From: Parapedobacter lycopersici
Lineage (GTDB): Bacteria > Bacteroidota > Bacteroidia > Sphingobacteriales > Sphingobacteriaceae
DNA length: 64,000 bases
Direction: 5' to 3'
Assembly (NCBI RefSeq): GCF_024643285.1
Contig: NZ_JAMSLW010000005.1
Span: forward strand, 186,001-250,000
Shown: positions 29,656 to 32,737 of the stretch, piece after piece
How positions within the stretch are numbered: position 1 is the stretch's first letter
How the letters are laid out: the number at the start of each line of letters is the position of its first letter
The notes under the pieces: model-generated
Databases searched by the model: none
What the model saw: the letters and a program-made list of their open reading frames with translations, nothing else
Told to the model about the DNA's origin: nothing
Made by a program: the position numbers and the translations under genes

Positions 29656-30126
29656 ATGAAAGCTTTTTCCTTCATTTTTATCAGCACTTGGCTTTTTCTT
29701 TCCTGCCAGAACGGCACGGCAAACCGGGATGGCAACACCGGCCAGTCAGCGGAAGAACAGCAGACCTTGCCGGACTCGGAGCAGAAGCGTTGTTTCATCC
29801 GACTCGACGGCAACCAGCAACAGGACTCCTCTTACCTGCAGCTGGTTATCCGCGGAGAAACGGTCAGCGGCACGTACAACTACGTCCCTTACGAAAAAGA
29901 TGCCCGGCGTGGCACGGTACTGGGTACCATGGATATGGACACCCTTAACCTGGTCTGGACATTTAAACAGGAGGGAATGCAGGACACCATGCGTGTAGCT
30001 TTCCTATTCGACGGAGAAAAATTACTCCGGAAATCACTTTCCGTGGATACGGCAACCGGCCGGCAGATGACGCTGGATGGCAGCCAGTTCTCCGAGATCT
30101 ACGAACCCGTCGACTGTTCGCAATAG
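29656..30126 (+). CDS. Predicted lipoprotein, unknown function
   Basis: 156 residues with a lipobox LFLSC near residue 16. After a polar, glutamine-rich linker comes a small beta-rich domain (RCFIRLDGNQQQDSSYLQLV onwards) with regular strands, containing GTYNYVPYEKDARRGTV. It resembles short META/lipocalin-like lipoproteins of Bacteroidota in pattern only. It overlaps the tail of the convergent HEPN gene by 28 bases. No specific function is claimed. Confidence 0.75.
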   Translation: MKAFSFIFISTWLFLSCQNGTANRDGNTGQSAEEQQTLPDSEQKRCFIRLDGNQQQDSSYLQLVIRGETVSGTYNYVPYEKDARRGTVLGTMDMDTLNLVWTFKQEGMQDTMRVAFLFDGEKLLRKSLSVDTATGRQMTLDGSQFSEIYEPVDCSQ

Positions 30127-31010
30127 ATTTGCTGATATTCCGCCGGGTAGTCTGCTCCTGCATAACGCTCCATTGCTTTTATCTGTTGGTTACACCGGTC
30201 ACCGATGGCCCGTAGTAAGGTGCCCGCACGGTGGTACAGGACCCATGCCTGCTCCTCCCGCACTTCAAATACCGCAGCATATCTGCAATCGATATAACTC
30301 CCCTTTAGAAGATTAAACAGCGCCTTCTCATCAGGGCTATTGCGGGGAAACAGTGTGCCTATCTCGGGAATGACGCTACTGCATAGCTTCAGCATCCAGG
30401 CTAGGTTATGGGTATTTGAACCAATATGCAAAAGCACCTTGATCACCGCTTTACAGGCTTGTTCGATGGTTTGGTGCACCATGAATACGGCCAGTCCAAA
30501 GTTGCTGTCCATCAGGCAATAGGCGGCACAGTCCATAAACTGGCAGCCCGTGTTAAACCATCGCCGCCATTCCCGGCGCATGCTCTGCAGCCAGGTTTTA
30601 TGGCAAACGTAGCCCCACCGCTTTGGCAGGGCTACGCCATGGCTATACAGCAGCGTACCCTTACTGAAGACCTGGTTGATAAAAGGATCGCCAGCTTCCA
30701 GCAGCGGCATGGCCTCCCCGTATGGCATCGCTACCGTGATGTATTGGTACTGTGCATTGCTGTGGCTGTTTGCCTGGTCCTGTATTTCATTTGCGCGCCG
30801 GGTCTCTTCATCGCGATAAATCAGCAGTAGGTCGGCTTGGAACCACAGCGACCGTGTCGGCGGCGCAAAGCAATGGGTATGTGCGGATTGACGCTGCTGC
30901 AAGGCAAAGCAAAACAGGTATGCGGTCGCAACGCGGGTGGTAATGGTTTCGATAAACTGTTTCAGCGCCTTCTGCTGTGCTTCGTGGAGTTCGGTCAGTG
31001 TAATGTCCAT
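30099..31010 (-). CDS. NTase-like/HEPN two-domain protein, degenerate copy
   Basis: 303 residues. The N-terminal ~130 residues have the size and strand pattern of a nucleotidyltransferase fold, but the GS and DxD positions are lost (SLWFQADLLLIY). The rest has a HEPN-like helical pattern (GLAVFMVHQTIEQACKAVI, then GSNTHNLAWM). In the upstream paralogue the HEPN RNase motif is R-x4-H; here the Arg position is Ile196 while His201 is kept, so nuclease activity is doubtful. It follows the paralogue by 11 bases, the same strand, so the two are one operon, probably controlled by the divergent S24 regulator. A regulatory or structural partner role is plausible. Confidence 0.7.
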   Translation of the reverse strand: MDITLTELHEAQQKALKQFIETITTRVATAYLFCFALQQRQSAHTHCFAPPTRSLWFQADLLLIYRDEETRRANEIQDQANSHSNAQYQYITVAMPYGEAMPLLEAGDPFINQVFSKGTLLYSHGVALPKRWGYVCHKTWLQSMRREWRRWFNTGCQFMDCAAYCLMDSNFGLAVFMVHQTIEQACKAVIKVLLHIGSNTHNLAWMLKLCSSVIPEIGTLFPRNSPDEKALFNLLKGSYIDCRYAAVFEVREEQAWVLYHRAGTLLRAIGDRCNQQIKAMERYAGADYPAEYQQIYCEQSTGS

Positions 31011-31021
31011 GGCAAAACGGG

Positions 31022-31918
31022 TTATGTGGTTTTATAGGAAACTTCCCCGGTTTTGAGCTGCTGAATCCGCCCTCGGCAATGAGTGTCAGCTGCACCGACG
31101 ATCCGTGTTACAAGCTCGGTCAATGCGGTAACCTGCTGTGGGCTGGCTTCAAAGGTTTCCTTATACCGGGCATCCCCAAAACCCTTTGACAGGAGTTCAT
31201 AAAGCTGGGCGTCTTCACCCGCTTTGCGGGGAAACGCCAGCGATAAATGTGGAACCATTGTTTCCATGAGCCGCTGTAACCGGTTCAGGTGCTGCGCATT
31301 GGTGCGGTAGCCAACCATCACGCGAAGCGTGCCGCAATAGGCATGCTGGATCGCCTGATGGAGCATATATACCGATAGGTGGAATAAGCCGTTGGTTGCA
31401 TAGAAATCTGCGCCAAGCAAAAACCCGTTTGCCAGCCCATGCCATTTATTCCAGAAATGCTCCCGGCGGCTGATCCGCGTGACGATGGGCTGTCCTTCTC
31501 CCCCGGGGTGGAACGGGATGGTGCCCAAGTCATAAAGCAGCGTCCCTTTTCGGTACACCGTAGTGAAAAAGGTGCTACCTTCCCGCAGCGCGGCATTTAC
31601 CTCATCCATGGTGTGCACGAGCACGGTTACCTCCGCGTCCGGCTTGAGGGCATCTTCCACCTGTCGCTGTAACACGGCATGGCTGACCGCCTGCGGCTCC
31701 GCTGGGACTACCAGCAAGTGATAGCTACTGACTGCACTGCTGGCATGTACCTCATCGGCAAAGCAGCTTTTTCTTACCGTTTGATGGCTGACACTGCCGA
31801 AGCAGATGATTTTTTCCGCACTCACTGTCTGAAGGGCATCACGCAACCGGGTGAATTCGGCGTTTAGCGGTCGCTGGCCATGCACCGACGCGGCATTTTG
31901 ATGAATTAATGTTTCCAT
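31022..31918 (-). CDS. NTase-like/HEPN two-domain protein with intact R-x4-H
   Basis: 298 residues. N-terminal part: an MNT-like fold starting IICFGSVSHQ near residue 37, where the acidic pair of active nucleotidyltransferases (SDxDLxV) is replaced by SSYHLLVV, so catalysis is unlikely. From about residue 153 the protein is HEPN-like: LFHLSVYMLHQAIQHAYCG, followed by the R205-TNAQ-H210 motif, and GFGDARYKETFE. HEPN proteins with this motif are often metal-independent RNases held in check by an MNT partner; here both halves are in one chain. Divergent from the S24 regulator with a palindrome between. Function is inferred. Confidence 0.75.
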   Translation of the reverse strand: METLIHQNAASVHGQRPLNAEFTRLRDALQTVSAEKIICFGSVSHQTVRKSCFADEVHASSAVSSYHLLVVPAEPQAVSHAVLQRQVEDALKPDAEVTVLVHTMDEVNAALREGSTFFTTVYRKGTLLYDLGTIPFHPGGEGQPIVTRISRREHFWNKWHGLANGFLLGADFYATNGLFHLSVYMLHQAIQHAYCGTLRVMVGYRTNAQHLNRLQRLMETMVPHLSLAFPRKAGEDAQLYELLSKGFGDARYKETFEASPQQVTALTELVTRIVGAADTHCRGRIQQLKTGEVSYKTT

Positions 31919-31973
31919 AGTTTAGGGTATTTTAGTAGTTTTGGTTTACGGTATAAGAAATACACGAACAAAT

Positions 31974-31993
31974 ATAATATCTTTTGATATTAT
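31974..31993. promoter_or_regulatory. Palindromic operator between HEPN operon and regulator
   Basis: TAATATCttttGATATTA (31975-31992) is a perfect 7+7 inverted repeat around TTTT, extended by one more A-T pair. It is centred in the 108-base divergent gap. It is the natural binding site candidate for the S24-type regulator and would control both directions. Confidence 0.65.
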
Positions 31994-32026
31994 CTCCAAG
32001 TCTTTGGTTACATTTTTACTTATCAA

Positions 32027-32737
32027 TTGAAAAACCTTGATCTACAATCTGAAAAAGTCGGCGAACGCCTGAAATCGATCCGCAACTCGCTTGGTTTAAC
32101 CGTAGAAGAATTCTACCGTCCGGTGATGAAAAGCTTCAATAATGGCTCCTCGATCGAAAACAATAAGCGCCGCTTGGGGAAAAGACTCGCAAAAGATATT
32201 ATCGATTACTATCGGATTAATCCTGTGTTTCTTGCAGCCGGCGAAGGTGAGATGCTGCAAAAAGGGCGGCGACGCCCCGTCGACTCAGGGCCGCAGGCCC
32301 ATTCGTCCGAAGCTGTTGAAACACCCGTCCCGTATTATAACCTTCGTCCGGACGAACTGGAGCAACGGCTGCCCGCGGACATCTTTGCGGATAGCACCCC
32401 GGAGTATTATGTCAATTATCGGCCTTTCAACGACTGCACCGCCTACCTACCGGTATATGGCAACAGTATGTTTCCGCTTTTCAACAGCGGAGAGATCATC
32501 GCGGTTAAGGAGGTGGTCAATCCCGGTATTATCCTGTGGGGCGAGGCCTACCTGGTCGTTACCCACGAACAGGCAAACAACATGATTGCCATCCGGCTGC
32601 TTCACGAGCACCGCGATCCCGAAAAAATTATTCTCCGTGCTTCAAATCCAGAATATAAAGGTGACATTGTAATACACCGGTCGGCCATTAAAACGTTGTA
32701 CCTGATAAAGGGCAAGGTTACGCGATATCAGCTATAA
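32027..32737 (+). CDS. XRE/S24 (LexA/cI-like) transcriptional regulator, catalytic Lys replaced
   Basis: 236 residues: an HTH region at about residues 10-65 (GERLKSIRNSLGLTVEEF) and an S24 peptidase-like C-terminus with catalytic-serine motif YGNSMFPLF (Ser147). The usual lysine that activates it aligns with Arg190 (IAIRLLHEH), so self-cleavage is doubtful. The start is TTG at 32027; no in-frame ATG exists before residue 34. Divergent from the HEPN pair; likely their repressor and its own. A damage- or nucleic-acid-responsive signal is possible but not shown. Confidence 0.85.
   Translation: MKNLDLQSEKVGERLKSIRNSLGLTVEEFYRPVMKSFNNGSSIENNKRRLGKRLAKDIIDYYRINPVFLAAGEGEMLQKGRRRPVDSGPQAHSSEAVETPVPYYNLRPDELEQRLPADIFADSTPEYYVNYRPFNDCTAYLPVYGNSMFPLFNSGEIIAVKEVVNPGIILWGEAYLVVTHEQANNMIAIRLLHEHRDPEKIILRASNPEYKGDIVIHRSAIKTLYLIKGKVTRYQL

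Follow-up and report, generated by a model that had tools for sequence, protein, structure and literature searches.

A 64,000-nucleotide stretch of the Parapedobacter lycopersici genome (contig NZ_JAMSLW010000005.1; the whole stretch is called the window below) carries two tandem genes for HEPN-domain proteins, HEPN_B and HEPN_A, and divergent from them a gene for an S24-type regulator, REG. This locus is probably one half of a split system, the half with the regulator and the effectors, in which REG would repress both the HEPN_B-HEPN_A operon and an unlinked gene of the same genome. The unlinked gene belongs to a protein family, probably a partner of HEPN, that is labelled X in this analysis. 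The reading is carried by a 21-bp site shared between the REG-HEPN intergenic region and the promoters of unlinked X genes, and by the linkage and fusion of X to HEPN in related genomes. Within the locus HEPN_A, rather than HEPN_B, is the chain that keeps the residues conserved in its family. The genome of the window (G000) is Parapedobacter-like, of the family Sphingobacteriaceae, and the closest HEPN_A genes in named records are those of P. pyrenivorans, P. tibetensis and P. soli.

A site shared by the HEPN operon and unlinked X genes

The window locus has no X gene. One X gene is present elsewhere in the same genome, with an exact copy of the 21-bp site (consensus CAAAGATAnTATCTTTwGATA) 29 bp before its start codon. 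All nine Parapedobacter genomes (9/9) have X, in 14 groups. The four genomes that also have REG contain five unlinked X groups, without HEPN and without the small helix-turn-helix (HTH) genes of the other groups, and the promoters of all five carry the consensus exactly, 29-41 bp before the start codon. The REG-HEPN intergenic region has the site in all four genomes, exactly in three and with one mismatch in the window. Eight of the nine other Parapedobacter X groups, which lie beside other HTH genes, were examined, and their best matches have 6 to 9 mismatches, the range given by shuffles; the ninth is in G006, a genome with no copy of the site at up to two mismatches. At that same threshold the site occurs in 4/4 Parapedobacter genomes with REG and in 0/5 without it. 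Across 60 genomes it was found at 20 places (eight exact, two with one mismatch, namely the window and one in G024, and ten with two), compared with 10 in all for the reversed pattern. All eight exact copies lie at REG-HEPN or X promoters.

The perfect palindrome that a preliminary description of this DNA had noted between the divergent genes is present. Taken alone it is not beyond chance: in the window it occurs twice at up to three mismatches, with 2.34 occurrences expected, and in its own genome at 15 places at up to two mismatches, one of them just upstream of the X gene, against 14 for a reversed control. It is the extended site of 21 bp that carries the weight. The proposed control of the HEPN genes at the level of transcription, by the divergent regulator through this palindrome, is supported, and is strengthened by the occurrence of the same site at the unlinked X promoters.

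Nine sites, read towards HEPN or X, end in TATCTTTG (in the window TATATTTG), which fits TAnnTTTG, the consensus for the Bacteroidetes -7 box in a passage of PMC7366714. At eight of the nine a TTG lies 19-20 bp upstream of TAnnTTTG. Since these two elements flank it, the palindrome occupies the spacer of the promoter, where a repressor site would be expected. This promoter anatomy, the place of the site beside REG and its co-occurrence with REG point to REG as a repressor, and because the shared site overlaps the predicted promoters, one repressor probably controls both halves of the system.

Family X and its linkage to REG and HEPN

REG relatives (E<=1e-15) occur in 56 of 301 family genomes, at 58 places. 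The surroundings of all 57 places besides the window were inspected, over the first four open reading frames (ORFs) on the divergent side. X or HEPN was found there at 51 of the 57, as X with HEPN (28), X only (19) or HEPN only (4; G003, G007, G008 and G261). Neither was found at four places (G014, G251, a second place in G204 and contig C16 of G000); the remaining two comprise one at a contig end and one without an intact REG. In seven loci, of genus g14 and of G032, X is fused to HEPN in one protein beside a small HTH-like gene, whose HTH was confirmed by Pfam for one relative (L060). These counts are based on a custom ORF caller (ORFs of at least 60 amino acids, taken greedily by length) and on hidden Markov models derived from the same loci, and may therefore miss genes that have diverged or are split.

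X proteins are made up of units about 90 residues long. When 11 X members served as queries in iterated searches, one family of at least 62 ORFs emerged, and X is present in 17 of 296 genomes sampled across the phylum. No convincing match was found for ten X proteins in Pfam or for 21 members in NCBIfam, and the best match of X to PDB sequences has E 0.31. A profile comparison of X with HEPN gave an hhalign probability of 0.2%, so X is not recognisable as HEPN. Among PADLOC models, neither X alone nor X-HEPN found a match, and HEPN_A, HEPN_B, REG and X matched no family at E<=0.1. No relative of an X-HEPN protein or of an X protein was found in viral_contigs, and a search of phages with an X-HEPN protein gave no match. 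Searched against plasmids, an X-HEPN protein matched 63 records, and among the 20 matches listed these covered solely residues from 192 on, the HEPN side. No description of an S24-HEPN-X locus was found among the papers listed by searches of the open-access PMC literature. X is most likely a partner that controls or targets HEPN.

In REG-less Parapedobacter genomes X adjoins a double-HEPN protein of 564-617 amino acids (L141:5310-7004, L142:4976-6829, L143:4752-6518 and L144:3715-5448). Most of these X/double-HEPN loci have a 131-aa regulator that resembles REG in its HTH part only. In G000 and G003 one unlinked X gene is divergent from a pair consisting of a RES-domain toxin and an Xre/MbcA antitoxin, with a REG-type site between. 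REG may also touch this pair, because the site lies between it and the X gene.

The HEPN chains and their conserved residues

HEPN_A matches the HEPN family of Pfam (PF05168) with 36.5 bits (E 6.1e-9), above the gathering cut-off of 22; HEPN_B, with 18 bits, stays below it. By sequence profile HEPN_A also matches PDB entry 4nqf (E 1e-24). In its predicted structure (mean pLDDT 77.9) residues 135-287 match the HEPN structure 4nqf with Z 21.9 and a root-mean-square deviation (rmsd) of 1.8 over 151 residues. The N-terminal part resembles structures of MNT antitoxins with Z 7.6-8.6, which lies in the tool's range for possibly mere common arrangement, and the two-domain protein 3c18 is matched with Z 10.6 but an rmsd of 8.3. 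The model of HEPN_B (pLDDT 64.5, with a low N-terminal part) likewise has the HEPN fold (4nqf, Z 20.4), and its match to the nucleotidyltransferase (NTase) fold is weaker than that of HEPN_A (MNT 8xeo, Z 7.3). A Z below 8 is by itself no proof of an NTase fold. Matches to further folds besides these two, among them designed bundles and vinculin-like ones, were discounted as arrangements common to many proteins. The NTase origin of the N-terminal part is visible in sequence too, because six aligned relatives (L012, L013, L015, L016, L020 and L030) retain the GS and DxD of the MNT part. The acidic residues of DxD are absent from both HEPN_A and HEPN_B. Models, fold matches and alignment together support the architecture first proposed for both chains, an NTase-like part with its acidic residues lost followed by a HEPN-like part.

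From 66 non-redundant HEPN matches, 56 of 265-375 amino acids were aligned; this set excludes two fragments and the longer proteins of the double-HEPN and X-HEPN types. Four columns are near-constant, in HEPN_A numbering Glu183 (Glu or Asp in 50/56), His201 (50/56), Arg243 (55/56) and Tyr244 (56/56), and HEPN_A retains all four. The rows without Glu or Asp are the same six that lack His, and they form one clade (support 100/100) that includes HEPN_B, in which Gln191 and Gln209 stand at the Glu and His columns and Arg251 and Tyr252 are retained. The preliminary description had assigned activity the other way round, on account of an R205-x4-H210 motif. Those letters do exist in HEPN_B but lie off the family columns, the family His column being Gln209, and there is no HXY at the conserved place. 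The isoleucine cited at the Arg position of HEPN_A is adjacent to the family Arg/Lys column, which is Gly197 in HEPN_A and Arg in three Parapedobacter orthologues. Since its whole six-row clade has lost both the Glu and the His column, HEPN_B was rejected as the active member.

According to a passage in PMC3710099, some PF05168-type HEPN domains lack the His of Rx4-6H, and a second conserved His, in an insert between helices 2 and 3, has been proposed as an alternative site. No canonical Rx4-6H was found in the family. To judge from the aligned residues, HEPN_A appears to fit the alternative-His site and HEPN_B does not. Glu183, His201, Arg243 and Tyr244 could thus form an alternative HEPN active site, and HEPN_A is most likely the RNA-acting member, a putative RNase. 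HEPN_B looks like a pseudo-enzyme, most likely with a structural or regulatory role.

Alternatively, HEPN_A would be no RNase and both chains would be domesticated binding proteins, with an inactive NTase and an inactive HEPN part, so that X and HEPN would make up a non-catalytic regulatory complex, e.g. in transcription or mobile-element functions. The acidic NTase residues are lost in both chains, the family lacks the canonical motif, and many relatives lie near recombinase- or mobilisation-like genes (as read by eye) or in repeated chromosomal settings. In the same direction, a part of PMC3710099 describes MNT-fused HEPN domains as typically lacking catalytic residues and most likely inactive. 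The Glu, His, Arg and Tyr columns, however, are kept in 50-56 of 56 relatives, one clade excepted, a pattern that fits a site in use, and the non-catalytic alternative appears somewhat unlikely.

Pairing of HEPN_A and HEPN_B across genomes

The tandem proteins are paralogues, as had been proposed (E 5.3e-21, 24% identity). HEPN_A, HEPN_B and the regulator occur together in three loci of two genera, namely the window, G007 and G066. In G066, which belongs to the other genus, X genes lie between (REG-X-HEPN_B-X-HEPN_A), and one of its HEPN proteins groups with the B clade, the other with the A clade. Two of the four Parapedobacter genomes with REG (G003 and G008) have HEPN_A alone, and at the loci of G026 and G142 a B-type HEPN accompanies X, with A missing. 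Most simply, the ancestor would have had a locus of two X-HEPN pairs; in the lineage of the window X would have been lost or moved and both HEPN genes retained, and in G003 and G008 A only.

The preliminary description had suggested that the two chains may form an active/inactive hetero-complex controlled by transcription. In a model on this basis the complex would by itself be the whole toxin module, checked by transcription alone. The ancient origin of the paralogues, their joint occurrence in two genera, and the Glu and His columns kept by A and lost in B are in keeping with it. Yet each type occurs in loci without the other, X has the same regulator site, and X is fused to HEPN elsewhere. 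A module of this kind is quite improbable, and the pair as an obligate unit was rejected.

The S24 regulator

REG matches Peptidase S24 of Pfam (PF00717) with 26.7 bits (cut-off 23.3). Its HTH gave profile matches to PDB chains, and REG matches a PHROG transcriptional repressor (E 2.3e-14). By these matches REG has the HTH and Peptidase S24 layout of LexA/CI-like repressors. As stated in the preliminary description, Ser147 is kept and Arg190 stands in the Lys column, so that the Ser-Lys dyad of self-cleaving S24 repressors is incomplete. Among 64 non-redundant relatives Ser is present in 62, Lys in 58 and Arg in 6, the last including the window and G003. Arg190 is a minority variant; the natural regulators of G007 and G008 have Lys at this column. 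G000 has a second S24 regulator of the REG family (L066:6203-6874, contig C16), 35% identical to REG, beside small prophage-looking genes.

Proposed mechanism and points against it

In the proposed split system REG, as a CI/LexA-like S24 repressor, would sit on an operator in the spacer between the -33 and -7 elements, and would repress the HEPN_B-HEPN_A operon on the divergent side and the unlinked X gene, and probably also the REG gene itself. Upon release of REG on a signal, HEPN and X would be made together and would act together, possibly as a complex. Relatives have the two as operon neighbours or as one fused protein.

Several observations weigh against this reading. The -7 box falls on one half of the 21-mer, whose conservation may therefore be in part that of a promoter. 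A shorter, 18-bp version gives 59 strand hits at up to two mismatches versus 81 for the reversed control; at up to one mismatch it gives 8 versus 0, and two of these eight (G007 C5 and G002 C7) lie beside neither X nor REG, and the CAAAGA part is missing from both. Comparison of REG-X loci with unlinked HEPN genes in other genera revealed no site in common, no score being more than one base above the best of five shuffles. No HEPN relative was found in 7 of the 19 X-only genomes; the two families can thus occur apart. The statement on MNT-fused HEPN domains cited above from PMC3710099 belongs here as well. As to a role in stress or defence, the components lack PADLOC matches, and the loci are chromosomal, with repeated neighbours in many genomes.

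The overlap with the -7 box also leaves room for another transcription factor at the shared site, or for a site that is mostly a shared promoter form, with REG controlling only the local divergent promoter; binding of REG to the site is itself a prediction. Against this, the site is tied to REG among Parapedobacter genomes, its exact copies are confined to REG-HEPN and X promoters, and it is absent from X promoters beside other HTH genes. Such an arrangement seems highly unlikely.

As to function, an RNA-directed effector in stress or defence, perhaps against phages, is the leading guess for the split system. HEPN residues are conserved outside the B clade, the genes would be under repressor control, and fused relatives lie in mobile-looking surroundings. 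Eight of ten neighbours matched defence models, the neighbours having been picked by eye and thus being a biased choice.

Gene layout and neighbouring features

The three genes of the preliminary description are real by ORF calls (Table 1). Because only 11 bases separate HEPN_B and HEPN_A, they are read as one operon. The convergent gene downstream overlaps HEPN_A by 28 bp (30099-30126) at the 3' ends.

Table 1. Positions of the genes and predicted regulatory elements, in window coordinates unless a genome or locus is given
Feature	Position	Strand	Description
HEPN_A	30099..31010	-	303 aa; pseudo-nucleotidyltransferase and HEPN domains
HEPN_B	31022..31918	-	298 aa; architecture like that of HEPN_A
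REG	32027..32737	+	236 aa, TTG start; HTH and S24 domain
Proposed operator	31969..31992	no strand	21-bp site CAAATATAATATCTTTTGATA (31969-31989, one mismatch to consensus) and most of palindrome TAATATCttttGATATTA (31975-31992)
Candidate -7 box of HEPN operon	31969..31976	-	TATATTTG
Candidate -33 element	31997..31999	-	TTG, 20 bp from -7 box
Convergent gene	29656-30126	+	156 aa, lipoprotein-like; no Pfam match
X gene	G000:C1:739608-740381		unlinked
RES/Xre pair	L214:5524-6503 (G000 C1)		by Pfam
RES/Xre pair	L261:3991-4946 (G003 C3)		by look-alike sequence

At four other loci a protein of about 440-570 amino acids comes after the HEPN relative (L056:4522-6219, L060:7362-9074, L061:4428-6125 and L064:4557-5885); the two tested, those of L056 and L064, gave no Pfam family. 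An ORF near an X-HEPN locus of G115 (L146:7585-9999) has a start that we take to resemble Cas9.

Comparison with known systems

The closest likeness is to HEPN-T and PF05168 proteins that carry a fused MNT part (named 'nucleotidyltransferase and HEPN domain-containing protein'). They share the His of the insert between helices 2 and 3, proposed as an alternative active site in a passage of PMC3710099, and the HEPN half of an X-HEPN protein has matches in plasmid records. Here, in contrast, the acidic NTase residues are lost, X is a companion, and the S24 repressor would have a second, unlinked target. HepT/MntA (HEPN-MNT, type VII toxin-antitoxin) likewise combines HEPN and MNT-like folds, and the models match HepT and MntA structures. 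The present proteins differ in having both domains in one polypeptide, twice, instead of in two adjacent genes, and in the S24 repressor and X. RX4HXY and GSX10DXD, the signature motifs of HepT/MntA in a passage of PMC7641770, are both absent from HEPN_A and HEPN_B in the alignment. Membership of type VII was rejected for want of both motifs and of the two-gene MNT/HEPN arrangement. Since neither chain has GSx10DxD, control by modification is unlikely, in line with the preliminary description.

IrvR of Streptococcus mutans, a divergent LexA-like stress regulator (PMC7101444), is alike as an S24/LexA-like protein outside the classical SOS regulon. It has different targets, whereas here two unlinked putative target operons have the same site, and the window has Arg at the Lys position. 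AbiV-type HEPN abortive infection proteins share a HEPN fold with a non-canonical motif (again in a passage of PMC3710099), but in fold HEPN_A matches AbiV weakly (Z 9.1), and the components lack a PADLOC match.

Significance

X-HEPN may tentatively be seen as an undescribed effector type distributed over Bacteroidota, in which a repeat-built adaptor or sensor, X, would work with a pseudo-NTase HEPN nuclease under repressors, S24 or small HTH proteins, that can replace one another. Its form in Parapedobacter would be that of a trans-acting regulon, with one S24 repressor, separated X and HEPN genes and one operator. The likely active HEPN chain is corrected, and HEPN proteins of unassigned role are tied to a family that the searched libraries do not name. 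An exact site is identified that probably lets a single repressor control HEPN and X at a distance, which makes their function testable.

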